Source: Niebla homalea
Lineage: Eukaryota > Ascomycota > Lecanoromycetes > Lecanorales > Ramalinaceae
Direction of reading: 5' to 3'
DNA: 64,000 bases
NCBI GenBank assembly: GCA_019925105.1
Contig: JAHGAU010000038.1
Span: forward strand, 1 to 64,000
Part shown: one piece after another, positions 3,001 through 47,627 of the stretch
Layout: each line of letters begins with the position of its first letter
Position numbering within the stretch: position 1 is the first letter of the stretch
Program-made: the position numbers and the translations under genes
Notes under the pieces: generated by a model
Databases searched by the model: none
What the model was told of the DNA's origin: nothing
Seen by the model: only the letters and a program-made list of their open reading frames with translations

Positions 3001-6000
3001 GCGTTAAACTTATCCGGTTCCGCTATTTCACCGGGAAATATAATTAATACTTAAAGTATTAACGTTTTATTATTAACGGTATATAATACGGTTAATTATT
3101 AAAATATTTAAATATATCTTCTTTAAAAGGTAGGGCCCGATATTAAGTGGGCCGTCCTTTAATTACCGGGTATATATACTCCGGGAGGTTCTCGTCTTAA
3201 AGTTAATATACCGGTTATTAAACGTAATATAAAGGGATACGTAATTCTTAAGGGCGATAATAATAAAGGGGTATTTAATTACGGAGTTAAATTTCTAATA
3301 TTTAATAAAGTATTTAAATCGGGTAATTAATCGTCTTTATTATTAAAGAGGTAATTAAAATTAAAAGACCCCGCCGTTAAATTATTAATATAAGGAGGCG
3401 GTCGGTTTAAAGGTATAAAAATAAGGGTTCAGGGGTTATATTCTTTTAATTAGGATAATGGTAAATAAACTATATATGTCCCGGGTAATTATTTCTTTAA
3501 AGTAAATAAAGAAATCTTTAAACGGAAGCTAAAGTAAACCGGGTTTTAAATAAATTATTTATATTAACTTATTTTCGTTTCTTTATTTATACGGGAATTA
3601 AAAGCTCGGCTTTTATATTATTTTTATATCAGAAATTAAATTATTTAATTATAATATTCCGATATCGTTATTAAAAAAACGAAGTTCTCCGGGGTATTTA
3701 TTTTATAAATAAGTATATTAAGTACCGGTTATTTTATTATTATGCCCGGTTTACCGGTTAACGTCGGAATTTAAGAATTTATGCTTTTTTTAATAAAAAT
3801 TAAACCCGGAAAATAAATATTTACGGGAAATAATAATTATAAAATAATATTATAAGTTAACGGTAAAATATAAATTACGTCTGAATACTTTAAGGGTTTT
3901 AACGGTAAAAAGTCTGAAAGTTAAAAAATTAATTAATTATTCTAGATATAAGGACTCTTAAGACCTTTTTTTTAAATATATAAGTATAATTATTAAATAA
4001 ATAGTTAAATAAAAATAAAATACCGAATAAAATAATAATTAATATCCGTTAAAAGATATTTATTAATTACCTTTAAGGTTTTCCGAATACTATAATTTTT
4101 ATAATAAATAATAATAAATAATATAAAACCATTATTAATATATATATTATGGATATTTAAATTTAAGTAATTCCGGAATTAAAAATTAAAAAGTTCCGTT
4201 TTACGGATAGGTTAATTACTTAAAATTTAAATTAAAAAAGCTAAACGGTAAAGGAATTATTATTCTAGTTTAAAATATTCCTTAATATAAATAGCCTTTT
4301 AAGATACTTAAAGGTTTTTATAATAAAGGAAAATATTTAAATTATATAATTTAATAAATAATACCCTTAATTCCTCCCGGAAGGTTATATAGATAAGGAG
4401 TTATAACTTATATTTTTTAAGGTTATTAATAAACTTATTTAAAAATAATTAATTAAATTATATATTAACGGGATTCTTTTTTAGTTTTTTTAAATTAATA
4501 AAAGGAATTTAAATACTTTATTATCCTTTAAAAAGTATAATATTTAAAAATTAACTTATAATAACTTTTATTAATAACGGAAAAGACGATGGAAAATAAA
4601 AATATTAAAAAAGATATCTTTATAAATTAAGCTTTTATAATCTTAAGCTTAATATATAATATTTATATTAATAATAATATCCCGGATAACCCGATTTTAT
4701 AACCGTAATATTAAGATTTAATTAAAAAAAGTATAATTACCCCGGATAAATTAATTATATTAAAATTAATTTAAATAATCCTTAAAACTTAACCTTTATC
4801 CCGTATTATAAGATTAAAAATTTTAATTAATAATAAGGAGTTAAATTACTTTTATAATTATTAAAAGAAAGTTAATATAATTACCGATTTAATAGAATTC
4901 CTTCCCCTTTTATAAGTAACTTTATTAATACCTATAAAAAAGGTTTAACGGATAAAAATAAGTAATATATTAACTTAATCCCAAGAATTATAAGGAAATT
5001 AATAAAAATAAATACGTAAAAATTACCGGGAAGGCATTATATAAATAAAATAAAATTAAATTATTAAACTTAACGGTTTAAAACGTTTTACTTTTTCCTT
5101 ATTATAACTTTAAAGATTATAAACCGTTTATATTGCTTTTAAGTATCGTAAAGAATAATAAGGCGTTTATAATAATCCGTATAATAATTAGATTATTAAA
5201 GGATTAATTAATATTTTAATTATTTAAAGAAGGATTACTTAACGGTAATACCTTCCCGGAGTTATTAAATATAATAAATATATGCGAGGAGGCAGGCTTA
5301 AACGCTATAATACTTCGTATAAGTTTTCGTTTATAAGTTAACTTATAAAGGGTTATTATTTTTTATATTATACTTATTTTATATAATAATAAAGATTTAA
5401 TTAAAGATATTAATTTTATTATTTAATACGTTATTATGAACTTAAAGGATTAACCGTTTTATATTATACTTTTACTTTAAAAGGAAATAATTATATTCCG
5501 CGGAAGGTTTAATTAAGGGTAAAACCTTTTATAACTTTATATCTTTAAAGTATTTAAGTTATTTAATTTATTTTAATTACGGTTAAGCAGTTATATAATA
5601 TAATATCCCTATAATTATTATCTCTATTTTTCTTTTATATGGTTTTATTTATCGTTAAAGGGAAATAAGGAGGAAATCGTTAATATTATAAGGGTCTTTT
5701 AAAATATTATTAAATCCCTCCGGTACGGTAGTTTTTAATCCCGGGGAATAATTAATCGTTATTATAATAAAAGGGTCGATCTTAAATAACGTTTAATTAT
5801 TACTATTAATAAAAAAATATTAATAAATAACCGGGGTTTATTATAAGTTTATTATTAGCGGCTTAAGACCCCCCTTAACGTATCTCCGGTATTTATTATA
5901 GCCTTTAAAATTTATTTATTAATAAATTTAATATAAATAGGCTTTTATATTTTTTAAGCTTTTATAAAGATATTATAAAGGTTAATAAAAAGTATATTAA

Positions 6001-6640
6001 TATACGTTTTAATAAATCTTTAATTAAAAGATAAAAAATCGTAAAGTAAACGGTAATTTAATCTTATATTAAGGGAGTAGGTAAAAAAGTTATAATTAAT
6101 CTATTAAGGTTTACCGATTTTCTAATATAATTTTAAAGTATTATTTCCGGATATAAATAATTAAAATAGCCTTAATATATATATATCCGTATTTTAAATA
6201 AAAGATTATTTTATAAAATAATATATAATAAAAAAAAATTATTATAGAAATAAAGTTAAGTTAAATTAAGTTAATATAAAACGGTAATTATTTTAAATAT
6301 TATTCCGAATTATAATTAAGCTATTTAAACGGAAATATAATTAAAAAAGTTAATAATATATATATTATAAATGGATTTAAGGATAAATATACGATCCGAA
6401 AATAATAAACGCGTTAACCCGATCGGGACGATTTAGCGGGTTTAACGTTAAACCCGGGATATATTATTAATAACTTTAATAATTTAAATAACTTAATATA
6501 AAATATAAAAGTAATAATTTAATTATTAAATTAACCTTATTAACCGATAAAAAACAGAAAATATAACTTTTACCGGGGCTTTTTCGGCTAATTCTTATTA
6601 ATTATTAAATCAATATAACCCCTTAACGTAAATAATTAAC

Positions 6641-7030
6641 GTTACCCCGGGATAAAGCCTTATTAATAAGTAAATTATTAAAGCCCTTAAGCGTGGACGA
6701 CCGGCGTTACCCCGGGATAAGGCCTTATTAATAAGTGAATCGTTAGAGCCTTTAAGCGTGGACGATTAACGTTACCCCGGGATAAGGCTTTATTAATAAG
6801 TGAATCGTTAAAGCCCTTAAGCGTGGACGACCGGCGTTACCCCGGGATAAAACCTTATTAATAAGTAAATCGTTGGAGCCCTTAAGCGTAAATAACCGGC
6901 GCCACCCCGGGATAAGGCCTTATTAATAAGTAAATCGTTGGAGCCCTTAAGCGTAAACGACCGACGCCACCCCGGGATAAGGCCTTACCAATGCCTGAAT
7001 CGTGGGAGCCCGTGATCGCGTGGAGGCTCC
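6641..7030. repeat. 65-bp tandem repeat, six copies
   Basis: Six head-to-tail copies of exactly 65 bp start at 6641, 6706, 6771, 6836, 6901 and 6966, each opening with GTTACCCCGGGATAA or GCCACCCCGGGATAA. Copies differ mainly by C/T and G/A transitions, and the last copy is the most GC-rich and diverges in its second half. A further degenerate copy may precede 6641. No function is suggested. Confidence 0.9.
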
Positions 7031-7100
7031 ATTCGATCGGCCCCGGGGTGAGAGGTTATAAACAATAAAGGTTAAATTAAGTAAGGATTTCATTAAAAGT

Positions 7101-7142
7101 CTTGGCATAAGCAGGCGACGCTAACGGCCATCTTATGCCAAG
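7101..7142. repeat. Short perfect inverted repeat
   Basis: CTTGGCATAAG at 7101-7111 is repeated inverted as CTTATGCCAAG at 7132-7142, around a 20-nt GC-rich spacer that escaped RIP. It could be a tiny foldback element or a relic terminus of a larger one. Confidence 0.75.
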
Positions 7143-7753
7143 ATATTTAAAAAGTTATTTAAATAAAAAAATTAATAAGAAAAAGGGAATAAGTATTATT
7201 TATTATTATTAAGTAAATAATTTATTTACTAATATAAACCGGCTTATAATAATTCCGGTACCGTTATAGCTATTCTTTCTTATTTTTTTTTTCTAAATTA
7301 AAAGATAAATAAATAGGATTAATAATACGCCGGATATACCGGAGAAAACCGTAAAATTAAAACTATAGAATTTATAGCTTAATAATATAATGGGTAATAA
7401 TTAACGGATTTTTATTTGTCCAACACCGTTAAAAAGCCGAAATTTATATGAAAAAAGTTAAGTTAATATATTTCTCCGGGGAATAGCCGAAGAAAAGTTG
7501 AATATTAACGCCGGGAAGTAAACTTTACTATTAATTACCAGGAATCTGTAATATTTTGAAAATCTATAAGTAAATAAAGAATTATCGGATTTACGTAATT
7601 TCTAGCTCTTTTTATTGGGCTTAGTCAGCCCTACAACTTTGCCCTAAAAAGCTAAGGATTCTGTAAAAAGGTCCCCTCCGTGGGAGTTACTTTAAAAAAT
7701 GACTGCCAGGAGACTACCACTTTAAGGCGCCGAGGTTCCCCCGGGAGGGCGAA

Positions 7754-7780
7754 TGACTGCGTGGTACTACCACGCAGTCA
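7754..7780. repeat. 27-bp perfect palindrome
   Basis: Two 13-nt arms (left arm TGACTGCGTGGTA) flank a single central base. It lies in a 250-bp island of normal composition inside the RIP block. Role unknown. Confidence 0.85.
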
Positions 7781-8639
7781 GTACTAAATGATAGGTCCTT
7801 AATAAATAATATTAATTAATTAAGGTCCTTTTAAGAACTAATTTATAAGTTTATATTTTAACGTAAAGACCTTTAATAAAAAGGATTATTAAGGTTTATT
7901 ATTTATAGTTTTAATAAGTAAAAAATAATAAAGAAGAATAAAGGTAAATAAAAAAAAGATTGAAAAAAGGGAAAAAGATAAATTCCTTAATTTTTTTAAT
8001 AAACGGATTCTATATTATAAAAATAATATTATAAAGTAAAATAATGAAATTTAAATTTATAATAAGGTTTAATATTTCTCCCTTATATTACAAAGTACTT
8101 TTTAAAGTATTTTTTCTTCCGGGTATTAAATAATTTATATTATAAAGTAAATACGAAACTAAATATCTTAATTAAAGGTTTTAAGGAATAAAAAAATAAA
8201 TAATAAATAAGGATTTTATAGGCTCCCGTAAGCTTATTCTTAATTAAATTTATAGTATTTTTAAGGTTTATTTTACTTATAACTTTTAAATTATCTTATT
8301 AAGGTTTAACCCTTTAAATCGATTCTTTATATAACTTAATAAAATTAATATTTATTTATTTAAAGCTATCGTAACTTCCCGTTTTAATTATAAAGTTTTC
8401 TTATAATTTATCCGGATATTAATTATTAAACGTTTTAACCGTAATTACCGCCCGTTTAATACCGTTAATAATTATCGGCTTACCGTCCGTTATTAATAAG
8501 TATTATTAATAAAAGCCTTTATTTTACCTTATTACTTTTTATAAAAGCGTAGTTAAATTGACTATAATATAATGTTAAAGTATAAGCCTTTTTAAGGTAA
8601 TTAAAAGGTAAAGGGTAGATTACGTATAATTAAAGATAT

Positions 8640-8800
8640 TAAAGTCTAGAGGTGCAAAAGTAAAGGGGCCGAAGGCCCTAATATACCCAGTCGGTAACAC
8701 TCCTGGGTACCGGATTAACCCCGGGCTTGGCCCGGGGTAGGCCAGGTAGGGCCCTTTCCTAACCTACTAATAACCCTGAACCCTGACAAGTATTAAAATA
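8640..8800. other. GC-rich island with short inverted repeats
   Basis: An abrupt GC-rich patch in AT-rich DNA contains small palindromic stems, for example CCCCGGG/CCCGGGG around 8,719-8,737 and ACCCAG/CTGGGT nearby. It has no coding potential. It may be a remnant of a single-copy insertion not exposed to RIP. Confidence 0.5.
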
Positions 8801-9103
8801 TAAGTATTAAGGTAATCAAATAATAAACTAAGCAGGGTAAATTAGGTAGGAGTCTTTCTAGTCTTTTATTAAGCGGCTTACGTTCTTAATAATAGCTTAA
8901 TAATATTAATATTAAGACGCCTTAATTAATAAGGATAATATAATTTTTTTATCGTAAAAGTAATATAATAAAGTAGGAGGCTCTATAGTCTCTTATCGAG
9001 CGGCTTAAACTTAATAATAGCCTAAATAATCTACGTAAAAGGGTCTTAAGTTTTTAATAATTACGGTAACGTTATAATTAAGTACGGATAATTATTATTA
9101 TAT

Positions 9104-9420
9104 TAAGGTAATAAAGTAAATAAGTCTTAATAATAAATGAATAATAGCTATAAAGGTAGCTATGATATAGGTGGTATACTTATAGTAGGTATATGCGCCA
9201 ACCCCCCCCGGGAGCTAGTCCTTATGGGGCAAGTAGGCCGAGCCTGGGAGCAAGGCCACTTGGAACCATAATACTCCTATACTTAACCTACTTGCCCCAT
9301 AAAGACTAGCTCCTGGGGGGTCTTGGCGCACACACCTTACTTGCATATACCACCTGTATTATAGCTACCTTCATAGCTATTATTCATTCATTACTAGGAC
9401 CTACCTACTCCAGTACCCTA
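9104..9420. mobile_element. Foldback element with 134-bp arms
   Basis: Arms at 9104-9237 and 9287-9420 are inverted copies of each other around a 49-bp loop. Most mismatches in the outer 60 bp are transitions, with the RIP-type base (T or A) in the left arm, which faces the AT-rich block. The right arm, facing normal DNA, is nearly unmutated. Arms contain a TTGGCGCA motif and an ACCTTCATAGCTA stretch resembling the small LTRs found further right. No clear target duplication was seen. It marks the edge of the RIP block. Confidence 0.8.
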
Positions 9421-9697
9421 TGAAGATGGATTTATGAAAGAAGACAAATAAAGCCTTTCAGGAAACACCCAGCTAGTCTGAGATATACCGCCAAGTAATG
9501 AGATATACACGTGTTATAAGAGTGTCTTGGCACCGCTCGCCTGACGGCTCGGTGACAATCCATGCCCGCAACATTACCACCATGCCTGCACTACGCTGAC
9601 AGTTTCATATCTGTTTCCAATCGTTTACCAATGACTAGTTTTATGGAGCTCATCGTAAATATTTGGCAACTACAGACTGCCGTCCGGCTTTTCCCCA

Positions 9698-11123
9698 CTA
9701 CTTTAACGCGTCTGTCTGGTTCGTAACCTCGTATGAATCAGTTCTCATGATTTGCATCTCCAGTTCTCCGCACGGACGGACCTTCTTGTCCCGAAGCTCC
9801 TGGTAACTTCCCAGAGGTATAACATCCGTCGACGTAATCGAATTTTTCGGGTTCATTGGCCGCCCAAGCTTCCGCGACCGGCTGGGATATGAGTGCCTGT
9901 CCGTATTGACATAGCGCTGAACATTGCGGTCGCCCGTCTTAATGAACTTCCACAAGCGGGGCATCGTAGGTATGGTGGCCGCGAGTATCACAGTGGTGAG
10001 TTCGGCAGCACTAAGAAAAGTGGTGATATCAGAATGGAGGCTAAGGTGAGAGAATGAACATAATAAGGAGTAAAGGGCAAAGAATAAGACACTTACGTCC
10101 ACATGCCAACGGGATACTCTGCCCAAATGACGTCCTTTGTCTGGCCAAGCCAAATTGAGTATACAAGGCGCATTACGCCCGAAATAATGACCCTGTATTA
10201 CAATGAGCACATCACAAAAACCGTTGTACCGAGAAGGAATGAACAGGCTTACAATAAGCCCGAGCCAAACACCGCAGCGATGGTAAGCTTGTTTTTCATC
10301 CCCATTTTCAGGCGAAAGACGAAGGTAATAGGGAGCGCCAGGATCAGGCAGTCGGAGACAATATTGATTCCCGCAGGGGCAATCAAGAGGACGTCCGTAG
10401 ATACGCACTTACCTGGCACAGAGCTGTCCCAGATCTTGGCTCGGGGGATGCATTGGAAAATATCGACGAACAGGTATGCAAGGTAGAAGGCCAGGTTAGC
10501 CCAGATCAAGATCTGGATGACGAAGAAGGCCGGTTTTCGGCGGCTGGTGACGAAGATGTTCTGTAGCTGTAGCAACACAGAGAGTTTCACCAGAAAAAGC
10601 AACGGACCGTATAGAATAATAAGGTAGTTCTCGTACTATTTGGAAGGAGTTAGGTCAAACGACCCTATTAGGCCGAATAGAGAATAACAAACTTTGGCAA
10701 CCTGCATTGCATTATATATAGACGCGTCCCAAAGATGACGGCCTTGACCTGGAGCGACTAGAGTAAGGACACACCATGGTATGAATCCCAACTGCCAACG
10801 TTGAGTTTCCAGACTTTATAAGAGGGGAAAGGCTCTAAATCCCTACTTGTGCTATTATTAATGCATCTAGAAAACGTCAAAATGTGTTGATAACGAGAAC
10901 ATGGGGTTTGCCACTAACAATCTGAGGCCCGGACCTGCTTCGTAACGTACAATTTCGTGAAAACCTGAAGGATAACCATGATGCTGCTGATGGAAAGGCA
11001 TAATGGCATTGTCACTAGATAGAGGGTGTGTCGATAGTCTGGGTTCTTAAGGTTTGAAGCCTTACCAGGAGGTGGAAGACCTGCTGGGGTTGTATAGATA
11101 TCGAGCAAAGTATCTGATGACAT
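9698..11123 (-). CDS. Fungal rhodopsin-like (SAT4/Pth11-type) membrane protein
   Basis: This is a multi-pass plasma-membrane protein of the Fung_rhodopsin (PF20684) family; members' ligands are mostly unknown. Exons read leftwards: about 10919-11123, 10693-10791, 10253-10635, 10097-10192 and 9698-10010. The last four close perfectly in frame. Introns of 57-86 nt have GT..AG ends and a CTAAC branch point. Family marks are GRHLWD after the second helix, IFQCIPRAKIWD, GKC in the long loop, RLVYSIWLGQTKDVIW, and WTAAELTTVILAATIPTM, followed by a polar cytoplasmic tail. The junction of exon 1 (start codon plus first helix) to exon 2 does not close cleanly: the best donor leaves one extra nucleotide. 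Either an exon is missed or the gene carries a lesion there. Confidence 0.8.
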
Positions 11124-12198
11124 GATTGAAAGTACTTCGACGTTGGTTGAACGCTCTGGAAGTTATGGTTGTTCAGTAAGGTCTTTGCCAATAGCGTGGT
11201 GATGCAGTAGAAGTGAAATATGTTGAAGAATTTTGCTGAGCTTAATTACATGAAAGATTTTACGACGCATTCGCCTGCAAGAACCGTGCCACACATTCCA
11301 CCAGGGCATCCGCGCTCCTCACGGGGTTTCAAGATCTGTGCCACATGTATATGCTTGGTATTCTCGCCCCAATGCCACCATAAGACCATTTCGGCCACTA
11401 TTATTGATCGTTGACAGATGGTGGTGGGATGGCCCTTATGCTAATCCTGCAATGCGCTGACTCAAAGCAGCGATAGGTACGTCCTTAAGAGTTTATAATC
11501 TGGACAAATTCAGAAAAAACGGTCAGGCATTACAGAAGGTGCAATAGGAAGTCCGTGAACAGGTGATAGGCAACATGGATTCCCAAAGCTGGAAGACTGC
11601 ACCGTTGTTCTTGCAGAAAAACGGACGGCACGTAATCGTTCCGTAGGGACTTATCAAAGCATAGCATGCTGATATGCAGCCAATAATTACCTTTCCCCAA
11701 AAATGCTTGGTGGATATAAGGGTCTTGATCGACCGGAGACGCGGTGTGCTAGACGTGCAGTTTTGGTTTGAGCGATTTACGGCAAGTCATTCATCTAATA
11801 GGTTAGTGTCAGATCCAGGCTCGCAAAAACATAAAAATCTTCCAGTGTAGACGTGCATTTGTTGTAAGCACGTAGGCCTAATCATCTGATAGATTGCATT
11901 CAGCTTTAGCGCCCCAAAGCATTCGGTCTTTCCAGAGTCAAAGGCAGGAGGTGATGATATCAGCTTGCCATGATCGATTGCAGGACTTTTGGCATCAATA
12001 ATGTTGTGTCAGTGCGACATTTTGCATGGGCAAGCCATTGCACTCATTAGGACATCAGCTGTTCTGCAGCGCCACGACCGAAGCTTTCATCCTGTGTGAA
12101 ATATGAATCACTGCCCCAGGTAACAGCATCACCCAAGAATGGAAAAGATAGCCTTTTCTGGTTGCTCAGAGTGGAGGGAGGGGCGATGTAGGCTACAA
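11124..12198. other. Intergenic, nothing recognised
   Basis: DNA of normal composition with only short unconvincing ORFs in any frame. I see no domain, RNA gene or repeat here. Confidence 0.5.
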
Positions 12199-13069
12199 TT
12201 TAGCGTGCTTAAAATCGATTTAGCGTGGTCAAGTTGCTTGAGAATCCTTGGCATTATTTTTTGCGCATATCCACTTTGGTAATTGAAACCAATATCCTTT
12301 ATACCCCTTTAATATTTTATACTATTGGTTATAAATAATTCCTTTATATTATTATATATATTCTATTAAGTTTTATTTATATTATTAACCATAACGTAAT
12401 AATAAAGGATATTAAAAAAAAGTCTTTTTTGAATTTAAGAATTAAAGGCGGAATTTATCCGTTAATAGATTTTATCCATAAATAAAAACCCTTTTTTATT
12501 CAATAATAATTAAGTATAAATATATAAAACTTATATAAGTTAATTCCTTAATATATATATACTTATTATAGTTAATAGCTTTATATTTAAAACGTTATTT
12601 ATAAAGTTAATATAAGTTATTAAAGTAGGTACGCGCAAAAATAATGCCAAGGATTCTTAAGCAACTTGACCACGCTAAATGTCGTTTCCTTGGCATTTTA
12701 ATTCCACCCCCACCCCAGATTCCTGCGCAGTAATTACCCTAGTCCCATGAAATACGTCTCTTTTCGAATTCAGAAACCGAGATATATATCTATAGATCTC
12801 ATTCTCTAATTTTTATATATAAAGATTTCCTCACTATTTTAGGGGCCAAAAACTTTAATGTAACCTCGGCTGCACAGCGGGGTCGTTGAAATGCCAAGGA
12901 AACGACATTTGGGGTGTCCGAGAAGCTTGTAAATACTTGGCAAAAAAAAAGCACCTCCCCCAAGATTTTGGTAGCCACCACCATATAAATTTATTAAGGC
13001 CTTACGTAACGCCTATTTCTCAACGTATTACCCTCGAATTACTTAATACGTTTAAATTTAAGGCTTTAT

Positions 13070-13147
13070 TGGTTTCCCTTTTAAGTTATATACGGTATAA
13101 GAATTACATGGTTTCCCTTTTAAGTTATATACGGTATAAGAATTACA
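13070..13147. repeat. 39-bp perfect tandem duplication
   Basis: Two adjacent identical 39-bp units (13070-13108 and 13109-13147) start TGGTTTCCCTTTTAAG. Being identical inside RIP-degraded DNA, the duplication probably arose after or late in the RIP process. Confidence 0.85.
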
Positions 13148-13218
13148 AATATTAAATTACGTTATTTTTATTTATTTTAGATTTATATTTATTATACTTA
13201 TACTTATTATATTTATAC

Positions 13219-13382
13219 TATTATGTGCAATATACGCATACCAAAAGCTTATCGGGCACTAATACCCAAAGGGGTATAGTGGCTTGGCGCGCATACTTAT
13301 ATTACGCACCTTTATAGCTAGGTAGAGAATCATTATATATATTATATCCACATTTTTACCTTAATACTCTTAATACCTGATA
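13219..13382. mobile_element. Solo LTR of the small LTR-element family
   Basis: This 164-bp copy is the reverse-complement orientation of the 162-bp LTRs at 45857-46018 and 47045-47206. It is flanked on both sides by TATAC (13214-13218 and 13383-13387), consistent with a 5-bp target duplication. The surrounding TATAC-rich minisatellite could also produce that match by chance. RIP has altered both ends from the expected TG..CA. Confidence 0.75.
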
Positions 13383-13395
13383 TATACTTATTATA

Positions 13396-13541
13396 CTTAT
13401 ACTTATTATATTTATACTTATTATATTTATACTTATTATATTTATACTTATTATATTTATACTTATTATATTTATACTTATTATATTTATACTTATTATA
13501 TTTATACTTATTATATTTATACTTATTATATTTATACTTAT
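13396..13541. repeat. 15-bp AT minisatellite
   Basis: About nine tandem copies of TTTATACTTATTATA. Related units also lie just left of the solo LTR (13,185-13,218), so the LTR apparently inserted into a pre-existing array. Confidence 0.85.
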
Positions 13542-14845
13542 TTTTACCGTTTTTATAATACCGTAACTTTTACTTTAAAGCTTCGTAATTACTTTTAAAG
13601 GGATATTTTATTATATTATAGCGGAAATATTTAACCTTAAACCGATTATATTTATTATTCTTTACCGTAAACTTAAAAAAGCCTCTGAAGTCTTATTTAA
13701 AGTATAATTATAACTCTTAAAAATAAAGTTTTATTTAGGTTTTTAATAGATTAAAAGTAAGCTTAATTAAACTATAATCCGGCGAATATAATAATAAATC
13801 TTTAATAATATAGCTTTTAACTTTAATAATTTCTTCAATCCGGGGAGAAACGTAAATATTAATATTATTTATATAGATTATATTATTAACGGCGGGGTAA
13901 GTATTATATTAATATAAAAGTTTATTAATAAGTTATTAATAAAACTTATTACCGTTATAATAACCTTTTTAATAAATATATATAATAAGTAGCCATTTAT
14001 TATATACGCCGGTAAAATTAATTACGTTTCCTTTCAATTAATATTTATATAATAATAAATTGGCTTATTAATAGGGTTATAAGTTATTAATCGCTTATAT
14101 ATTAAGTTAATATTATAAGGATATTATTACGGGGATATTAATAAAATTAATTTATTAATAACTTTAAGCTTTAAACAGTAACTTATTAATAAAAATTAAT
14201 TAATAAATGAAATAATTATTTATATCCGCTTACTATATAGTCCGTAAAAGAGGGTTTTAAAAGCCGACTTATTAACCCTTTTTACGGTTTATCCTTTGTT
14301 TTTTTAAGATAATTAATAACTTATTACGGGATAACTTGATATCTTATTCTTCCTAAAGTTACCGGTAAAGCTTATTTTAAAAAGCTAAAAAATGATAGCG
14401 TTAATATTTAAGTAATATCCTTAAAACTATAAGATAAAGCCTTAAAAAAAAATTTTAAGATTATTAAAATAAATTTATTTACTTATATTTTTATGTACGT
14501 TTTTCTTATTTATATATTATATTTTAATAAATATACGCTTTATTAATAAAGGCGGACGGCTTTTAATGGTTATAAAGTAAAAGATAAGTATTATACTTAA
14601 TAAAGGAATCGATCTTACGGTAAACTATTTTAAAATTTATTAACAAGTAACCTTTAATTCTATAATACTATAAATTCACTTATTAATACGATAATCAAGT
14701 AATACGTATAGCAGTGCACGTTGCGCAAGGCTTCAGTAAATGTATATAGTAATGGCTAACAAAATCTCGGGAGAGGTGCGTTTTTTTTTTTGCCAAGCAT
14801 TTGCAAGCTTCTCGGACACCCCAAATCGATTTCGAGCACGCTTAA

Positions 14846-15609
14846 TGCTTGATTTGGCATATGATAGTTGGCGCATTACTCCCGAAAAATGCACGCTCAG
14901 GTTCGCGTTTTTGGCCACGCAGCAGTTCTCTAGTTCTAGCGGCTAAGCAGAAGCACCATTTTACCAATGCTTTCTGCAGATCAGCCCTTACGGCCAACGG
15001 CACTCCGAAGTCGAGCCTACTCTACGAGAGCATGCTGCCAAGCTGAATGAGGCCTGCACTTTCGCCGAACCGCACAACTTAATGGACCTGCTGTAATATG
15101 TTATCAGCATGTCATTTCAATAGTACTGATCCACTTACTTCATGTACGCAGTGGACTAACACTCTTTGAGTATTTGCCACCCTACCCACGTGGGAAAGAA
15201 TTCCTGCGATTGGCCCGCAAAGTATCCCATCGTTGTACTCATCTTGGGGTTTCTTACGCGCAAGAGCAAAGTGGTTGAATGTACTGTCGTACCTGCGCAA
15301 CCCGGCTTAACAATCAAGCAATGGTATTGAAGATTGTGAAGCCCAAACTTGTTTCTAACATCCCATGTGGTCGCTATTGGTACCTATGCTTTCCTGCGTC
15401 TGCAATTTTCGCAAAAATCGCTCTCGTCCACGCTGTCTTCAGGAATGCTAGGTGACTTCCAAAGTGGAATTGGAACCTCTCCAACTCGTACTACAATACT
15501 TGACTCATCGCGAATCAACACAATCTGTTCTCGAGCCTCACCCGTTATCTCTACTATTCGAATCAAGTGACGTTTCCAGTAGTGCTTATCTCCATGAAAC
15601 GCATCTCCA
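14846..15609. other. Intergenic, nothing recognised
   Basis: Composition returns to normal. Short ORFs on both strands overlap each other and show no recognisable family features. Confidence 0.45.
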
Positions 15610-22529: not shown

Positions 22530-23338
22530 CTATGGTCGAGGCCCTTTCGCTCCAAAAATGTCCTGAAAACTATGTCAAATGTTGAATGGTGAACGATTCG
22601 CCTTGGCTCACCTTGACCAAGTCTCTCAGATCACCATATATGTCATCGAGCGCCCTTTCGCAATTCACCTATGATCGTTAGCGTCAATCTTTCACATGGG
22701 AATAGTACCCTACATCGACGATTGATCCTGCAAATGCCTCCGTGACACTTGTGATTTGTTCCATGTGTCTGTCGTACCGAATTTTGAAGGTTTCCGCATT
22801 GTCATCGACCCTACCAGAGGTCTGCCCTCTTTTCAAGATACGCTCGAGCAAGGTGTCTTTGGGACACTGGAAGTGCAGGAGTTTTTTGACGGTATAGCCC
22901 TAAGGAATTAGCACTTCCATTACAGACTGATATCGAACCCTCACCTCGGTCTTGAAGAATTGGGTCTGCTCCGCGCTCCTGGGAAACCCATCGAGAAGTA
23001 TGTTTTTCTCCCCAGCTCTTATGCATTTTTCAAGGACCGTGTTGAGAAGCTTTCGAACTCTATCGTAATTCACAAGCCCTGCATTCTTCATGATCCTTTC
23101 AACTTCAGGGTCGTGATCTTTATCATCGCCTCTCAGTAAATCGCCAATACATATGTGCGCAACTCCCAACTCTTTCGCAAGCCTTGTACATTGGGTACCT
23201 TTGCCTACACCCGGCGCTCCTGTTGAAGTTCTGCGTCAGCGCTGGCATAATCGTATTGGAGACTGTTTCATATCTACCGATCACGCAGACGATGTTTGCC
23301 TCGCCCTTGTTGAGATTGGACAGAATTGCAGGCTCCAT
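22530..23338 (-). CDS. Nucleoside-monophosphate kinase (UMP-CMP/adenylate kinase family)
   Basis: It transfers a phosphate from ATP to a nucleoside monophosphate. Five exons (23278-23338, 22945-23219, 22714-22899, 22612-22668, 22530-22562) with introns of 45-58 nt close exactly at 203 residues. The P-loop GAPGVGKGT (about residues 21-29) is split by the first intron. It is followed by ICIGDLLR (NMP-binding helix), LLDGFPRSAEQ, CPKDTLLERILKRG, and the short-LID motif GRVDDNAETFKIR. The short LID and 203-aa length fit UMP-CMP or AK1-type kinases; substrate choice cannot be decided by eye. No targeting peptide is obvious, so it is probably cytosolic. It is transcribed divergently from the viperin homologue, which needs a nucleoside triphosphate substrate, so a role in feeding that enzyme is inferred. 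Confidence 0.88.
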
Positions 23339-23880
23339 TTTATGTTTCGACAGACGTTTTAGGAAGATCTGCTTTGAGATACTAGAGTCCCTAAAAGAAG
23401 ATGGCAGGCAAGCTCTTATATGACCAATTCTAGAGCTTGACCAATCAACCAAAGTCGCGAGCAGCTTCTAAATCTGTATTGCATTAATGTGAAAACGGCT
23501 AAAATTTGTTGTGTTCCCAAACAGTATGTTCAATCAGACCTATCACAAACGAAAAACCTGTGGTTTGGAACAACATCAAACGCGTTTGGACGGTTGCCCT
23601 CATCCCTTGATCAGGCAAGACCAGACAGCACCGTGGCTGCGGCTCAAAGGGTGATTGCAGCCTTACAATTCTTGTTACTGGCAATCCAACTGCTCAAGCA
23701 GGACAAACCACGAAATATACTAGAATTGGCTTTGGCGCCTTCGTCTATCACCAAGCAGCAAGCGTTGTTATCCAAGTAATGGCGCGAAGGTTCTTGTGGA
23801 GAATTGTCGGTCGCACGCGCTATAAATGCTCCATGTTGCCCCCTTTGAAGGAATACTTTACTCCCAGCGCAACCACACAG
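23339..23880. promoter_or_regulatory. Shared divergent promoter region
   Basis: 542 bp separate the start codons of the kinase (leftward) and the viperin homologue (rightward). Only short overlapping ORFs lie here. A TATA-type box is present on the viperin side. The arrangement would allow co-regulation, but I can point to no specific factor site. Confidence 0.55.
23821..23827 (+). promoter_or_regulatory. TATA box of the viperin homologue
   Basis: TATAAAT lies 54-60 bp upstream of the ATG at 23881, in GC-richer surroundings (GCACGCGCTATAAATG). Its position argues for starting at 23881 rather than at the in-frame upstream ATG at 23779. Confidence 0.5.
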
Positions 23881-24982
23881 ATGGATTTCTTTCCAAATTA
23901 TTTCCCCTTATCAAATTACTTCACTATGTCCAGGTTCCACATCGTGAATACCACCTTCCTGGCCATTGTTATTATGACATTAGTTGCACTGTACCTCCGG
24001 GAAACTATTCGGAAGCGCAAGCCCGCTAAACTCAACAAAGTCCCAGTCTCAGTCAATTACCATCTCACCAGAGAGTGCAATTACTCTTGCGGTAAGAATC
24101 TCTCCGTCATCCTGACGGCACGAGGCGGCCGGCCGTACGTGGCTAAATTTGTTAGGATTTTGCTTCCACACCGCTACATCGTCGGCGGTTGCTACCCTTT
24201 CGGACGCCAAGAAAGCCATGTCCCTGCTCAAAGACGCCGGTATGAAGAAGATCAATTTCGCTGGCGGAGAGCCATTCATCAAACCAAAATTCCTGGGCGA
24301 GCTGGTCAAATACTGCAAGCAAGATCTCAAGTTGGAATCTGTCTCGATCGTCACCAATGGCAGCAAAGTCAGAGAGGCTTGGCTTCGTGAGTACGGCCAA
24401 TACCTGGACATCATGGCCGTGTCTTGCGACTCCTTCAATGAAAAGACAAACATGGAAATCGGGAGAGGTACCGGCAATCACCTCAAGACCGTAACCGGCG
24501 TGGGTCAGATGTGCAAGGAGCATGGGGTAATGCTGAAGATCAATACTGTCGTAAATCGGTTCAACTTCGAGGAGGATATGAACGCCGGGATCGAGCAGAT
24601 TGATCCGTTTCGATGGAAGTGCTTCCAGGTACTGGTCGTGCCCGAGGAGAACGGTTCAGAGGAGACATTGCGCGATGCGAGACGCTTCCTCATCAATGAT
24701 GACGAGTACCGCCATTTTTGCAATAAACACCAACATCAGAAGAGCTTTGTCAAGGAAAGCAACGACGTTATGGCGAGCTCATACCTGTTGCTTGATGAGT
24801 ACCTGCGCTTCTTGAACAAGGGTGTCAAAGAGCCTACAAAGAGCATCTTGGAGGTTGGTGTTGGGGCGGCCTTGGATGATGTGTACTGGGATGAACGTGG
24901 ATTCAATGAGCGTGGCGGAATCTATGATTGGTCAAAGTCGAGCTGTTCCGACAACTCTGCTAAACAAGGGATGGATTGGTAG
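23881..24982 (+). CDS. Viperin (RSAD2) homologue, radical SAM enzyme
   Basis: Viperins are radical-SAM enzymes that dehydrate CTP to ddhCTP, a viral-polymerase chain terminator; some prokaryotic members use other nucleotides. Two exons (23881-24091 and 24156-24982, 64-nt intron) close at 345 residues. A hydrophobic N-terminal segment (about residues 21-39) should anchor it in a membrane, followed by a basic linker. The [4Fe-4S] motif CNYSCGFC (Cys66, 70, 73) is split by the intron just before the third cysteine. Then come FAGGEPF (SAM binding, 107-110), SIVTNGS, LDIMAVSCDSFNE, IGRG, INTVVNRFNFEEDM, RWKCFQVL, ESN, and SYLLLDEYLRFLN. The C-terminus ends in Asp-Trp, like vertebrate viperin, whose terminal Trp recruits cluster-loading factors. 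All catalytic landmarks are intact. The head-to-head NMP kinase supports a nucleotide-based role. An upstream in-frame ATG at 23779 would add 34 residues. Confidence 0.95.
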
Positions 24983-37484: not shown

Positions 37485-38648
37485 CGTGTAAGTACTGACA
37501 ATGGACGAAAGGCGACCACTTTACCATCAGCCAGCTATACTCCGCTCAAAGACTCTCTTCGGTCGCTGGAAGATCTATCCTCGTCCCATTCACGGTCTGG
37601 GAGTAATACTATCTTCTTCGAAAGAAGGCAAGATACAGAGGCTGGATATTTGAAAATGGTTCTAATCGGCGCGCTACCTCACTCGTACGAGTGCCGAGGG
37701 GGGTAGATTATTTGGAATTGGGTCTCCACCGTTGGGTTACATTATGCAGTCAGGGGATCTCTCACCAATCAGGTTTCACGACATGACGCTAGGGTGGCAG
37801 ATCCTTCAGCCTTGTAGACAATTTCCAGGGTGGCTCGGATGGATTGAGCAACATGACTGGAGCATTCAAGACTGTTGCCGAGAAGAATACGCAACGATTT
37901 CCCGTTTGGGGGAAATTCCGCGAGTGTAGAGGCGCAAGACGTTTGACGTGATACGGAGGCATGAGTGATCCTGCACCGTGCTCCGGGCTCACAGCACTTG
38001 GATTTTGTACTCAATGAGAATTTGTCATCAAGTATCTCGAGGTGGGTTTGGGCTCAGCTCTTCCAAAGAATAAGATCCACACAGCTAACTCCCTGCTTTT
38101 GCTTGCTTGTGTTTTCGCCTGGCTTTGATGAACCAAAGTCCGTTCCTATACCAAACTACCAGACTGCTACTCACAACGTGCCTCTTCTTCAGGAGTCACA
38201 TGTAGCTGGATGTGCCATGATGCTTTGGTGCTTGCCAATTGTGTCCCTGATGAGAATGACTTCTTCTTCTTCGTCTGCATTGCAGCCTCGTCCTCCATCC
38301 GCTCAGTGATTCGGTGCATCTCTCCCATCCTTCAAACCGCCTGTGTACCAATTATTTCTGTTAGGTGTCTTGTCAGAGCTCTGTCTTGGCCGCTATGCTT
38401 CTTAGGGTCTTGCTGGACACTCGTTGCGTTGCCATTATCAGGATCACGTCACGTTACCCCACCGGTTCGAGGTTTCGCTTCCAGATCTTCTTTCTGATCC
38501 CACTAATATAGGTATCCTTCTCTTGCTGTTGTTTTTACATAGGCCGCTCCACAGCTCGTTCAGACACGTTGCAGAACATCTCCTGGCTAGTCTAGGCTAG
38601 CCAGCCATCTGATCTAGTGTAGTTGCAGTCATCAAATGCACCCACGCA
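37485..38648. other. Intergenic, nothing recognised
   Basis: Short, low-complexity Ser/Cys-rich ORFs only. Confidence 0.4.
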
Positions 38649-38891
38649 GTGCATCAGACTCTCGAGCAGATGAAGATGCACCATTCCGACTCTGCGAGGC
38701 ACTCGAGGTCGTCCCTGAGAAGGATCGAGAGGGGAGCCCGCTGCGACTGTTTCGCGGGCCATCATCGCGAGATCGGCGCCATTATTCAAGTCGCAAAGGT
38801 CGGATGCGATGTACTTGCTGCTACGAATAGCGACGCTGTCTTCCGCGATAGCGCGTGGATTCAGACGGTCGTTGGATGGTTGAAGCAATGA
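38649..38891 (+). pseudogene. Possible C-terminal gene fragment next to the retrotransposon
   Basis: An 80-codon frame ends in CDVLAATNSDAVFRDSAW and VVGWLKQ, then stops 22 bp before the Copia target duplication. It reads like the end of a larger fungal protein (a CDCF..H segment precedes it), but no upstream exon was found, and the opposite strand is also open. Weakly supported. Confidence 0.25.
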
Positions 38892-38917
38892 AGAAGGCGG
38901 CTTGGGCGGCAGCCTAG

Positions 38918-39186
38918 TGATGCACGGGGGTATTCCGCGGTTGTCTTGGCAGCATCTGCATTGAGGACCCTGTCGCATAAAGGCCTACTAAACGGCCTTT
39001 TGTTAACGGTATTACAGGTGCATCGGTGCATAAGGTACGGTGAGTATACGGTCATTAAACGGCTTATAGGATGGACATAAATACGGTTATTATTACGGTA
39101 TAATTAAATAAATATAATAATAAACTTAATATAAATAATTCAGCTTACTTACCTTTACCCTATATTTATTTACGTATATTATATTA
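38918..39186 (+). repeat. Left (5') LTR of the Copia element
   Basis: 269 bp. Its outer (left) half is nearly free of RIP changes and its inner half is heavily C-to-T/G-to-A mutated relative to the right LTR. Confidence 0.92.
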
Positions 39187-40128
39187 GGTTTTAAGTCCGG
39201 TTAATAAGATAATTAATTATAATATATTATTTAAATAATAATCTTATTTAAATAATATTTATAATATTTATATAATTACTTAAAACCGTAAAATAATTAT
39301 AATTTTAACTTCCGATACCTTAATAAATAATTATAATTATAAAGATACCGAAAAAGGTAACTTAACGTAATAATACCTACTTTATTAAGTATAATATATA
39401 TTTTATACTTCCGGTAATAATAATATTTAAGATAAGAAAAATAACGCCATTATCGCTTAAAGTATTTACCGTAAAAACCATTAAATTACCCTTAAATAAA
39501 TTTAAGGAATCCTTTATAAAGCCGGCTTAATATAAGTTTTTTAAGTTTAATAATAATAATTTCCGTAAATAAAGTTAAGCTATGAAAAGTTTATAAGAAA
39601 TTATTTATTATAAGGTAATATAGATAACTTAACCTTATATACTTAAGTTTTATTTTAAGTTAAAATTTAAATTATACACGTTAAGTTTATTACCGTTATA
39701 TTTATAAATAACGTAATAATAACCTGGAGATTATATATTTTAATAAGTAAAAGCGTTATACCGTTTTAAATCTATTGAACTTAAAGTAAGATCCATTTTA
39801 TAAAAAGTAAAAAAAATTAATCTTTTTATTAATAAAGATCCTTATTATAAAAGCTTAAAAGGATAACGGCGTAAATAAGCTCGCCGTATTTATAAAGAAA
39901 GTAAATAAATAGGTAAATTAAATTAATAAAGCCGTTATACTGAATAATATTTATTTAAACCTCGCAATTATAAACTTATTTCGAGAAATACATAAGTTTA
40001 GCCTTATTATATACCGGCTTAAGAACGATAAGGATATCTTTAGTAGTAAGAGGGTTATTCAGAGACTTAAGGTAATTAAGACCAATACGGCTGAAAGACA
40101 GACCACCAAATCCCGCCGCTCAGTGAAA

Positions 40129-40170
40129 TGCTACAATTGCCAGAAAATGGGTTATATAGCTAAGGACTAC
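40129..40170 (+). other. Copia gag zinc knuckle remnant
   Basis: The reading CYNCQKMGYIAKDY matches the retroviral-type CX2CX4HX4C knuckle with the His and final Cys both replaced by Tyr, each explainable by a single C-to-T or G-to-A transition (RIP type). Confidence 0.8.
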
Positions 40171-40605
40171 AACGAAGAAAGCGTAAAAGCAAGCGGTAAA
40201 GACGGTAAAAAGGCTAGTAAGGATAAAGTTAAGAAAACAGAGAAATTTAAGAAATAAACAGCTTAATTTAAGTTTAAATAAATTAAAGAAACTACAATTC
40301 AAGATAATAAGGAATTTAAAAAATTAAACTTTATTACCGTTAATAAAAAGGAAAATAATATTAAAAAATTAATACTTATATTTATTAATAATAACGAGGA
40401 TTTTATTATTTTTTTAATAAAAAACGGAACGGTTTTAATAAACCTTTAAAAAACTATTAAAGCAATAAGGATCTATATAATTTAATTTTATATAAACTTA
40501 ATAATAATACCGCTATAATAAATTTAAGTAATTTTAATTTTTATAACGGTAACGATAAAGTAAGAAATATTATTATAATAAACGGTATAAGTAATAAAGA
40601 GAACT

Positions 40606-42201
40606 TGTCACGGTATGGACCTTGGGAGGATTCCTTGGCACGGATCGGGCCTACCTTGTTCCGGTGTTTGGCGCGTATATTTATATTTCCCACCTTTATA
40701 GCTGGATAGCCATTAATTATATATATTATACTTACTCACTTTATGTATACCGCATTTCTCGTAACAAATGGTAGTAATAGTTAGTGTCTAGCTGTTACTA
40801 CAGATCGAGTATAACCTTTACTGCCTTGAGTCAAGGTGGCTACGTTATAGCTTATCCACCTAATCTTTTATTATTAATAAAGCGGATCCTTTCAGTAAGA
40901 TACCTATTAAACCGACAATGCCTTTATTAAAAGCCTTATTAATAAGCTTTACTTTAGCCTTATCCTCGTTATTAATATACGCATCAGCTCTTAAATCGAC
41001 TGGATCCCCTTTAATAGTTTAAACCTCACTTGCAAGATCCAGAACTTTATCCACTTTATTTATTCTAAAAGTAAACTTATTACGAGTTACCTGCTTCTTA
41101 CCCAAATCCTACCTTATTATCTACGATCTCTATATGAGATTTGAATTTCTTAAATCTCTTACTTCATTAAAATCAATACCCTCCTCCAAAGTATCACTAT
41201 TAAAGGTGCTACCACTTATAATACTTAAAGACCTCCTTAATAAATTTATACCCAAATTGAGTGCACCACCCTTAAATCCATCTTTATTAGTTAAATCGCC
41301 TTTACCTTAAAAGTCACCTTTAACGTAAATTGCTCCCGCAGCATTAAAGAAAGAGCCCTTAGTTAAAATACGTTTAATTATAGTAGATTAAAAGGGAAGA
41401 GATGTTATAAAAGCTGGGATAACAAGTCTCGATAATAAGTTATCGGACGTTTATAAACGCTAATACACCTTTAAATACTGGCCTTATAATAACTTATTAC
41501 CACTTGCTTTTATAAAGACCGGCTAAAAGCATATACCCTATCGTTATAGTTTGGATAAGCTTACTTATAATAAGTATAAAGCGAGCTATAATAATTAAAA
41601 CTATAATAATAAGCCGGAGAATATCTATGCCTTACATAAGCGTACTTACTTATCTTATAAATACGGCGTTGATCTATATTGGTATTAACCTTAAAATACG
41701 ACTCGGTAATACCACGTAGCTACCAAGTAAGATACGACCACGGGAATACTTCGGAAATCACGTTTTTAAGCTATTTAGCTTAATCGCAATCCTTAAATTT
41801 ACGACTATTTCCCGGGTAGATTATGACAATTGCTCGGCTTATACGGTTTTTCCTTTTTTTTTTAATATGCGGTTCTACCGGCCTTTATTTCTTAACAACT
41901 ACCTAACCAAATAACGTTATCTATATACTCGGAGCTTCCCCTTGGTTACCTCTATTACCGAGGCTATCAAAATTTATGGTATTTTATGGTGAATATAATA
42001 CGACGTGGATGTCGCTTTTTCTCTTTTTTTATAGGCATATTGTCACGGTATGGACCTTGGGAGGATTCCTTGGCACGGATCGGGCCTACCTTGTTCCGGT
42101 GCTTGGCGCGTACACTCATATTTCCCACCTTCATAGTTGGATAGCCATTAATCATACATATTACACCCACTCACTTTATGCATACCGCATTTCTCGTGAC
42201 A
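40606..42201. mobile_element. Small LTR element 1, nested in Copia
   Basis: 161-bp direct repeats (40606-40766 and 42041-42201) begin TGTCACG and end CGTGACA (CGTAACA in the left copy). The whole 1,596-bp unit is flanked by GAACT at 40601-40605 and 42202-42206. The repeats differ only by transitions, nearly all RIP-type bases in the left copy. A candidate primer-binding site (TGGTAGTAATAG) follows the left LTR on the plus strand. Remnant coding (KVDKVLDL, then PVDLRADAYINNEDKAKV) is on the minus strand. No integrase or RT is visible, so it is non-autonomous; orientation is left open because the signals conflict. Confidence 0.85.
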
Positions 42202-43378
42202 GAACTATTTATTTAAGAATAATCTATATAATTAAATTATAAAACGAAAACGGAAAAATTACGATTTTTTCTAAATTAATAAAAACCCGGACCCCGTAAA
42301 ATTCGTAAATACCGGTAATAATAATTACGCTTTAATAGTAATAAGGGGTAATTCCCTTAATAAAATAAGCCAAAATATACCGTCCGAGGATAAAGAAATA
42401 CCTTAAATAATAAATTCTGATATTACGAAATATATATATATAAAAAGAAATACATTTTAAAGTTTTAAGGAAAAAACCATAAAGGTAATAATAAAGGGCA
42501 AAAGCTCCTTAAACTTATTTAAATATAATAACGTAATAATCGAAATAAACGGTTAAAACCGTATTATTTAAAACGTATTATAAATTTTTCATTCAAGATT
42601 TAACCTTTTATCTATTTTAGCCTTAAAGGATAAAGGTATAAGTATTATTTTTAACGGATATAAAATAAAGATTATATAAGGAGATCGATTTATTACGATA
42701 AAATATTAATATAAAAAGCTTTATTTATTTATATATATCCGGAAAAATATTACGTTAATAAATAATAAAAAAGACTTAAATCCCGTACTTTATAAATTAT
42801 AAAATAAAAAAAATAAGAAAAACAGTAAAGTTAAATATAATAATAATAAGATTATTTAAAAACGTAAGAAAAGTAATAATAAGCTTTTTATAACTCTTTA
42901 TAACCGTTTAAGCTATTTAGGTATAATTAGGTTATATATTATATATGAAATAATATTAAGGATATTAAAAGTATTAACTTTAAAGGACTTTTTTTATAAT
43001 ATATATAAAAATAATAAACTTATAAAAAGTATATATAAATACCGCTATATAAAAGAGATAAAACTTAAACTTTACTTCTTCTGCGACTTTTAAGGCCCTT
43101 ATAGTATTAAGGTATTAATACTTAAAATAATACCTTTTAAGTATTATTTATCCGTTATTAATAAAATTACGGGATAATTAAGTTTTATTCTATTAATAAT
43201 AAAAGTTAAAATAATTAATTAAGTTTTATTTATTATTAATATACTTAATTATAAGGAAGATAATATTACCGTTAAATACGTCCGTATTAATAATATAAAG
43301 GAATTTTAAGCTTTTAAAGCGGTCGTAAAAGAATATAATATTATTATAAAATATATTACATATTATATATTTAAATAA

Positions 43379-43402
43379 AACGGCGTAACCGAACGGTTTA
43401 AC
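43379..43402 (+). other. Copia integrase motif remnant
   Basis: Reads NGVTERFN, the conserved segment near the end of the Copia integrase core (usual form NGVAER.N). Neighbouring codons include RIP-created stops. Confidence 0.75.
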
Positions 43403-45004
43403 TAAATAATTATAATTATAATTTAATATATAATATATTATATTAAGTTATTAAATAACTTTTAAGTTTTTATAATTATATATATTAATTAATTAAAATA
43501 AAAGTTTTTATTAATAAAAAGAATAAATCCGTTTAAGAAATAAATAAAAATAAAACATTTTATTAAAAATAAAAAGACGTTTAAAATATTATATAAAATA
43601 AATATACTTAAGGAAATAAAACGATTAAAATTAAATAAAATCGTTATTAATGGTATTTACTTAAGAATTATATTAAGTTTATAATTATACGTTTATATAT
43701 TTTATAAGAGAAATATAAAGGTTATTATAAATTTAAAGGTCTTTATTAAGAAAATAATAATATATTGATTATTATAGCTTATTATTAAAGATATATTACC
43801 GGTTTTAAAGCCGATAACCCCTACCGATAATAATATAACTTATTATAAAGGTGAATACGTATTAAACGGATTGAAAAAATCTAATAAAAATAAGTTTATA
43901 TTAGCTTATACTTACCTGATTCCTTAAGATAAAGAAAATTATAATATGGATTTTATAAATCCCGACCTCCTTTAAATTAACAATAAAGTCTTTAATTAAA
44001 TAAAACAAAATAAGAAAAATATATTACTAAAAATCTATAAGGTAATAAACGGAACGTTTACTTAAAAAGAGAATTGAAGAAAGCCTATTAAAAACTTTAA
44101 AAATATTAAAAATCTTATAAATCGCGGAAATCGTAAAAATTATAATAATAATAAGGCTTTTAACTTATTTTTACCAGAAAGAATTAACGTTTTTATCCTA
44201 TTTAAGGATACTTATAATTTTATCCCGGCTTATTAATAAACGGGTAAGAATTTACTATTACCGGAATATACTTTAAAAAATAAAATAAATATAAATAACG
44301 ACGTTAATGATAAACTTAAAATTAAACGCTTTTATTAAGGCCGTTATTATTACGATCCTTATGTATTTAATATTAGTTTTGGTAATACCGTTTTTATTAT
44401 TATGGTTTATATTAATTTACTTATTTATTAATAAGCTATAAATTCCCGGACCGATTTAAATAAATTAAAACTATTAATAAAGAGATTATAAGCTTATTAT
44501 TAAATAATACTTAAAAGTTTATAAATAAACCGAAGGATTATAAACTTATTAACTTTAAGTGGGTATTTAAGAAAAACTCTTTACTTTAGGTTTTATTAAT
44601 AAATAAAAAATAAAACTTATTATAAAAGGTTTTACTTAAAAATAAAATATTAATTATAAAGAAACCTTTTTATTTATTTTAAGGTATAAGTCGCTCCGTT
44701 TATTTTTAATACTTACGGTTATTTATAGACTTTAACTATAACTCTTAAACGTCGTTACCGTATACTTACATATAAATTAAATAAAAAGATTTATATAAAT
44801 ATCTTTAAAAGTATTCCGATAACTTAATAAAATACCAATAAATATCTCTGTTTACTTAAAGGTTTTTATAGGCTTAAATAATTAAAAAAGATTTAAGTTA
44901 AGAAACTTTAATTACGGCTTTACAAATTCGGTTTTATCTTTATTTAAGTTAATCTATACGTTTTTATTAAGAAGTTTAATTAAAAAACATATTTAATAAC
45001 CTTT

Positions 45005-45016
45005 TATATTAATAAT
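45005..45016 (+). other. Copia RT active-site remnant
   Basis: Reads Y-I-N-N where Copia reverse transcriptases have Y-V-D-D. Both Asp-to-Asn changes are single G-to-A transitions, so catalysis is abolished. Confidence 0.75.
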
Positions 45017-45856
45017 ATTATTATTATTATTAAAAGCTTAAAAATTTGTAAATAAATAAAAAATTATTTAATTTTAATATTTAAGCTTATTAAAAAAGGT
45101 TTATTAAAAATAATCCTTAAGATATAAGTCTCTTAAAATAACGATATTATAATTATAAATTAAATAAGTTATATTATAAACGTCCTTAAAAAATATTATA
45201 TAATAAATAATAATAATATTAATACCTTAATAAATAAATATAAAAGTATATAAATAACTTAACTTAATAAGTAATAGATAAATTAATATGCTTATTAATA
45301 ATTTCTTAATAAGCTTATATTCCTTTAAATTATTATCCGTCCGGATTTAGTTTTTTCAATTTCAAAATTAAGTTAATTTTATAATAATCCCGTTATTTAA
45401 TATTAAAATAACTTAATATGAGTACTTAATTACTTAAAGAGTATATTAAATTTAAATTTATACTTTTAACGTAATAACGGATTACTTAAATACTTTATAA
45501 ATATTACGTTTATTAACGATAAAAATAATAAAAGGTTATTATATAACTTTATAATATTAAATACCGGTATAATATATATATAATATACCTGAAAATAACG
45601 TACCGTTATTACTTTTATAATAAAGGTTAAGTATATAACTTTTTCTGAAAAGTATAAGGTAAGTATTTAATCTATAAAATAAATCGATAAGTCCGGATTC
45701 TCTAAAAGTTCCGGGCTTATTATTTTATTTAATAATAATAACGGTAATATTTTTCTTATTAAGAACCCGGAAAATTACATACGGATTAAATATATTAACG
45801 TTTAATATTATTTTATTCGGGAAAAAATATAAAAAAGCTTTATTTTAATAAAGTAT

Positions 45857-47206: not shown

Positions 47207-47358
47207 AGTATATTAATATTAAGGATTAATTTATAAATATTATAATAAAGCTTTTATTAAAATAACCCTTTAAAATAAATCGATTAAAGCTTAAATTATA
47301 TTTAATAAATTAATAACAATATTACCGTTATAAATCTATAATAACTTTAAAGAAGGAG

Positions 47359-47627
47359 TAATATATAAAGGTATTCCGCGGTTATCTTAACAGCATTTAT
47401 ATTAAGGACCCTATCGTATAAAGGTTTATTAAACGGCCTTTTATTAACGGTATTATAGGTATATCGGTATATAAGGTACGGTGAGTATACGGTCATTAAA
47501 CGGCTTATAGGATGGACATAAATACGGTCGTTATCACGGTATAATTAAACAAGCATAGTAGTAGACTCAATACAAATGATTCGGCTTACTCACCCTTACC
47601 CTGCACCCATTTGCGCATATTGCATCA
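47359..47627 (+). repeat. Right (3') LTR of the Copia element
   Basis: 269 bp, same length as the left LTR. Here the inner (left) half is RIP-mutated and the outer half is nearly pristine, the mirror image of the other LTR. Confidence 0.92.

Follow-up and report, generated by a model that had tools for sequence, protein, structure and literature searches.

The window analysed here, 64,000 nucleotides at the start of a Niebla homalea contig (C38, JAHGAU010000038.1; 478,641 bp, in an assembly of 50.6 Mb and 52 contigs), carries a viperin gene and a nucleoside-monophosphate (NMP) kinase gene arranged head to head. Both genes are intact, the kinase is an accessory gene, and the pair recurs in other fungi. 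The best explanation as a whole, which we hold with reasonable though far from full confidence, is a conserved module of filamentous ascomycetes that couples viperin to a dedicated NMP kinase of the fold shared by UMP-CMP (uridine/cytidine monophosphate) kinases and adenylate kinases. A first-pass annotation of the same DNA had described a complete viperin and a complete five-exon NMP kinase diverging over 542 bp, and gene models bear this out: viperin lies on the forward strand and the kinase on the reverse, and their start codons point away from each other across positions 23339-23880 (Table 1).

The viperin gene (23881-24982, forward strand) begins with an ATG at 23881, is interrupted by one 64-bp GT-AG intron that splits the codon after CNYSC, and encodes 345 residues. 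Its product carries the CxxxCxxC cluster motif as CNYSCGFC, a GGEP motif and a C-terminal MDW. It scores 246.8 bits against the NCBIfam model NF038283, above the cut-off of 180, and 389.4 bits against the stricter TIGR04278, below the cut-off of 450. Residues 51-343, the catalytic part, align at E 3e-118 with a viperin-like protein of known structure; the C-terminal viperin domain is present, and the conserved core is common to 19 fungal relatives in an alignment. The C-terminus reads hydrophobic residue, any residue, then Trp or Phe (mostly LDW or LEW) in 31 of the 33 fungal viperins compared, the exceptions being Usnea and Arthrobotrys. The best named matches among those listed are Xanthoria (73% identity), Lambiella insularis (71%) and Lepraria (70%), the last two of which are Lecanoromycetes. 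Judging from the sequence, the hydrophobic N-terminal segment is probably a membrane anchor. The genome contains five radical-SAM (S-adenosylmethionine) matches including this one, and the other four we take, by eye and from remembered motifs, to be MoaA, lipoyl synthase, Elp3 and Tyw1; the gene in the window is thus the only viperin found. Another fungal member of the radical-SAM nucleotide dehydratase family, the viperin of Thielavia terrestris (SAND), is reported to act on CTP and UTP; in the main text of that paper the word kinase does not occur (PMC9642334).

The kinase gene (23338-22530, reverse strand) has five exons, four GT-AG introns of 45-58 bp and a product of 203 residues. It matches the Pfam ADK family (E 2e-28) with its P-loop, DGFPR motif, LID arginines and invariant sites all present. 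Five Pfam families match at E up to 0.001, ADK and AAA models among them; the thymidylate-kinase family PF02223 is not one of the five, and the Pfam search gave no HD-domain match. Among the PADLOC models it matched 0 families, and so none for a pVip-associated kinase. The residue before GDLLR, which would have a role in the choice of NMP, is Ile in the window and Usnea kinases and Val in the other fungal accessory rows of a 54-kinase tree. At the same position URA6 and the animal UMP-CMP kinases have Ala and adenylate kinase 1 (AK1) rows have Ser or Thr, with a pineapple UMP-CMP row (Val) and Tulasnella (Thr) as exceptions.

The pair is probably a two-gene module for making virus-blocking nucleotides. 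Viperin, likely membrane-anchored, would most likely turn CTP (or UTP) into a 3'-deoxy-3',4'-didehydro (ddh) nucleotide, which would end RNA chains. The kinase would most likely phosphorylate pyrimidine (or deoxy or ddh) monophosphates, and might thereby either feed the nucleoside-triphosphate pool next to viperin or return ddh-monophosphates to the active form, a role that would be much like that of CMPK2 for animal viperin. The two genes may also share control. In the intergenic region a TATA-like site precedes each start codon, by 60 bp for viperin and by 82 bp for the kinase; 1% of letter shuffles have such sites on both sides.

Co-location elsewhere was read from contig size, by comparing the lengths in bp of the contigs behind the 120 listed viperin matches with those behind the listed kinase matches, of which 203 of 219 carried a contig size; the counts of fungi that follow are likewise among the matches listed. 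Six contig sizes coincide. One of these, a 945-bp equal-size pair (P0089/P0165), was rejected because a contig of that length has no room for the two genes. The recurrence for which the first-pass annotation had suggested surveying fungal genomes was found: judged by equal size, the pair is present on five other contigs, two of them with consecutive tags (Table 1). For 54 kinase and 76 viperin contigs longer than 10 kb, drawn from the comparison of 90 of the 219 listed kinases with all 120 listed viperins, a jitter control puts the coincidences expected by chance at 0.03. The four named species fall into Lecanoromycetes (two), Geoglossomycetes and Pezizomycetes, and this spread over three classes of Pezizomycotina supports a conserved fungal viperin-kinase module and makes the finding stronger than the earlier reading of a single locus could know. 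An unfused kinase of the window type occurs in 18 named fungi, and viperin is also listed for four of them. The kinase and viperin trees agree in joining the window, Lepraria and a contig from an ENA metagenome in one lineage, with Usnea next, which fits joint inheritance. A bolder version of this history, tentative and in our view doubtful, is that fungi built their own viperin-kinase pair from a kinase fold other than that of CMPK2 and of the bacterial partners tested, drawing on a fungal clade with relatives fused to a deoxynucleotidase-like domain and with an altered NMP pocket tuned to 3'-deoxy or ddh substrates. The pair would then charge and recycle ddh-pyrimidines, and this nucleotide-based antiviral module would predate the split of Pezizomycetes, Geoglossomycetes and Lecanoromycetes.

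Several points weigh against a conserved, dedicated module. For 39 of the 43 named viperin fungi the matches listed include no unfused kinase from this clade, a count that neither shows nor excludes absence of the kinase and that leaves open how often the pair is retained. Co-location is read from equal contig sizes rather than maps, with consecutive tags in two relatives only. Support for the deeper branches of the viperin tree is weak, and linkage marks no single viperin group, since the six linked viperins need five changes on that tree and 126 of 500 shuffles are as low. As for the kinase, it reaches 124.1 bits against the UMP-CMP kinase model TIGR01359, which was curated for naming prokaryotic proteins and has a strict cut-off of 207.6, and 128.4 bits against the adenylate kinase 1 model TIGR01360 (cut-off 284.1), thus missing both. 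In their fit to the predicted kinase model, AK1 structures come within one Z unit of the value for uridylate kinase, and the substrate is not readable from the sequence because UMP-CMP kinases and AK1 both usually have residues other than Val or Ile before GDLLR.

A much less likely reading is that the two genes are neighbours by accident, with an accessory pyrimidine or deoxynucleoside-monophosphate kinase beside viperin held in place by slow rearrangement. Divergent gene pairs can persist by chance, and only five other co-located cases are found among the matches listed, three of them (Lepraria, Usnea and the ENA contig) in the lineage of the window. However, the pair is also present in Trichoglossum and Wilcoxina, which belong to other classes, and contig size is shared in four of the four named species for which both genes are listed. 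Chance adjacency is unlikely because the pair recurs in this way.

Matches to the ADK family resolve into five genes of the genome, on C31, C5, C27, C24 and in the window. The C31 gene has SAGDLLR and FPRKMDQ, typical of URA6, and thus Ala before GDLLR; those on C5 and C24 resemble adenylate kinases. In the tree of 54 kinases (26 rows unlabelled, root drawn at the midpoint only), the window kinase is separated from URA6 by starred branches and does not group with it. A 97/91 branch has the viperin-linked kinases on one side and the rows of other groups on the opposite side, and AK1 forms a group of its own (100/98). Both the window kinase and the C27 gene have a phase-1 intron that interrupts the P-loop at its first Gly codon; the genome's own URA6 has no intron at that position, an observation that supports a shared origin of the accessory kinases, separate from that of URA6. 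Gene models of relatives (P0007, P0008, P0099, P0119, P0263 and P0321) contain extra residues at the site, such as would result from reading through the intron.

Kinases fused to an HD domain resembling 5'-deoxynucleotidase occur in several ascomycetes (P0268, P0269, P0322 and P0327) and are related to the viperin-linked kinase. They are possibly enzymes of deoxynucleotide control. Since a related group carries this fusion, the kinase clade may control dCMP and dUMP pools, and it is conceivable that the window kinase serves deoxynucleotide or salvage metabolism while viperin acts on the same pool for a metabolic purpose other than defence. The fused kinases cluster in one group (100/99) and share the V-GDLL site, and the C27 copy has the P-loop intron as well; if the true root lies among the UMP-CMP and AK1 rows, fused and unfused accessory kinases are sister groups in a single clade (98/94 branch). 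One relative was named a dCMP kinase by its depositors. The window kinase, in contrast, gives no HD-domain match and adjoins viperin, and depositors' names are not tests; we consider the salvage role quite improbable. In Heterodermia speciosa, the one named species for which both are listed, the HD-fused kinase and viperin are on contigs of different size. In the N. homalea genome itself, an HD-domain-like stretch lies upstream of the V-GDLL kinase at C27:716500-719500, and this gene may be decaying, because DIFPR replaces DGFPR and an in-frame stop follows. That the window kinase is an ordinary housekeeping UMP-CMP kinase, the identity that the first-pass annotation named as fatal to its proposal, is very hard to credit and was rejected: its closest solved sequence is uridylate kinase 1uky, but the URA6-like gene is present on C31, the TIGR01359 cut-off is missed, and clade and intron differ.

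In animals and some prokaryotes, too, viperin has a nucleotide kinase as its partner; in vertebrates RSAD2 (viperin) lies beside CMPK2, likewise a pairing with an NMP kinase. CMPK2, which is mitochondrial, belongs to the thymidylate-kinase family, whereas the models matched by the fungal kinase are those of ADK and AAA. The likeness to the vertebrate pair drawn in the first-pass annotation therefore holds for the kind of partner and fails for the kinase family, and orthology of the window kinase to CMPK2 was rejected. CMPK2 supplies the CTP for ddhCTP, and in pig cells its overexpression yields more ddhCTP and its antiviral effect requires viperin, according to PMC10058120. For bacteria, an essay puts a kinase beside viperin in 15% (PMC11249213). 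A plasmid collection yielded viperins, and in five of the 12 plasmid viperin loci inspected, whose gene tables are incomplete, the annotated gene next to viperin encodes a nucleotide kinase. Four of the five kinases were tested, and all four belong to the thymidylate kinase/deoxynucleoside kinase family; since the fungal kinase has instead the adenylate/UMP-CMP-kinase fold, the fungal pair is not a transplanted CMPK2 pair. On a plasmid of Nostoc sp. UHCC 0926 (L023), whose recorded source is a lichen surface, viperin lies beside a deoxynucleoside kinase; lichens may therefore bring together two sorts of viperin-kinase pair that differ in the type of kinase. A viperin scan of bacterial and archaeal genomes found no relative, by short exact patterns that say nothing about absence. 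Viral contigs gave one weak kinase relative and 14 radical-SAM relatives; the IMG/VR contigs L034, L035 and L036 encode viperin-like proteins with 27-30% identity over 264-274 query residues.

The partnership of viperin with a kinase is thus a known idea, and the kinase family is what is new. Linkage of eukaryotic viperins to nucleotide kinases was reportedly noted in a 2024 study, which may already report the fungal pair. We found no description of a fungal viperin-linked kinase in the titles and abstract openings listed, and a prior description is possible. If the module is real, the fact that fungi have a pairing of their own, with a differently folded kinase, would suggest that viperin generally needs a kinase to itself, and the pair would offer a tractable microbial system for asking whether fungi use chain-terminating nucleotides against mycoviruses.

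Table 1. Parts of the viperin-kinase locus in the window, and contigs of other origin to which equal size assigns both genes
Feature	Position or contig	Strand	Remarks
Kinase exon 5	22530..22562	-	carries the stop
Kinase exon 4	22612..22668	-	gene model
Kinase exon 3	22714..22899	-	LID region SGRVDDN
Kinase exon 2	22945..23219	-	P-loop GAPGVGKGT, CIGDLLR, DGFPRS
Kinase exon 1	23278..23338	-	start codon 23338-23336; ends within first Gly codon of P-loop (phase 1)
Shared divergent intergenic region	23339..23880		542 bp
Viperin exon 1	23881..24091	+	N-terminal hydrophobic segment and start of radical-SAM domain, through CNYSC and first base of next codon
Viperin intron	24092..24155	+	64 bp, GT-AG, within cysteine motif; splicing restores CNYSCGFCFHT as in relatives
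Viperin exon 2	24156..24982	+	rest of radical-SAM domain and C-terminal viperin domain; terminus GMDW
Lepraria finkii, viperin and kinase	983,560 bp contig		consecutive tags ABVK25_002429 and 002430
Trichoglossum hirsutum, viperin and kinase	230,833 bp contig		consecutive tags M1813_007244 and 007245
Usnea florida, viperin and kinase	1,016,308 bp contig		equal size
Wilcoxina mikolae, viperin and kinase	332,409 bp contig		equal size
ENA metagenome contig, viperin and kinase	11,868 bp		equal size

The pair sits inside an island of normal GC content, at about 15-39 kb, between AT-rich blocks with dinucleotide signals like those of repeat-induced point mutation (RIP). The RIP composite index is 1.08 at 1-8000, 0.29 at 8001-15000 and 0.73 at 38001-48000, whereas the pair and its surroundings have values of -0.6 to -0.8. 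In 500-bp steps, GC falls to as little as 13% in the AT-rich stretches (1-15000 and 39000-47500), the first of which includes a patch of normal GC at about 9.5-12 kb. The suggestion that the region is otherwise full of accessory genes was lightly tested: among 10 open frames scanned, six have Pfam families (two short-chain dehydrogenases, DUF6536, a Zn-cluster regulator, a heterokaryon-incompatibility (HET) domain and a pyridoxamine-oxidase-like protein) and four have none. The two short-chain dehydrogenases are close to the pair and the Zn-cluster regulator and HET gene farther off, the latter an open frame of 768 residues at 61329-63635 on the reverse strand.
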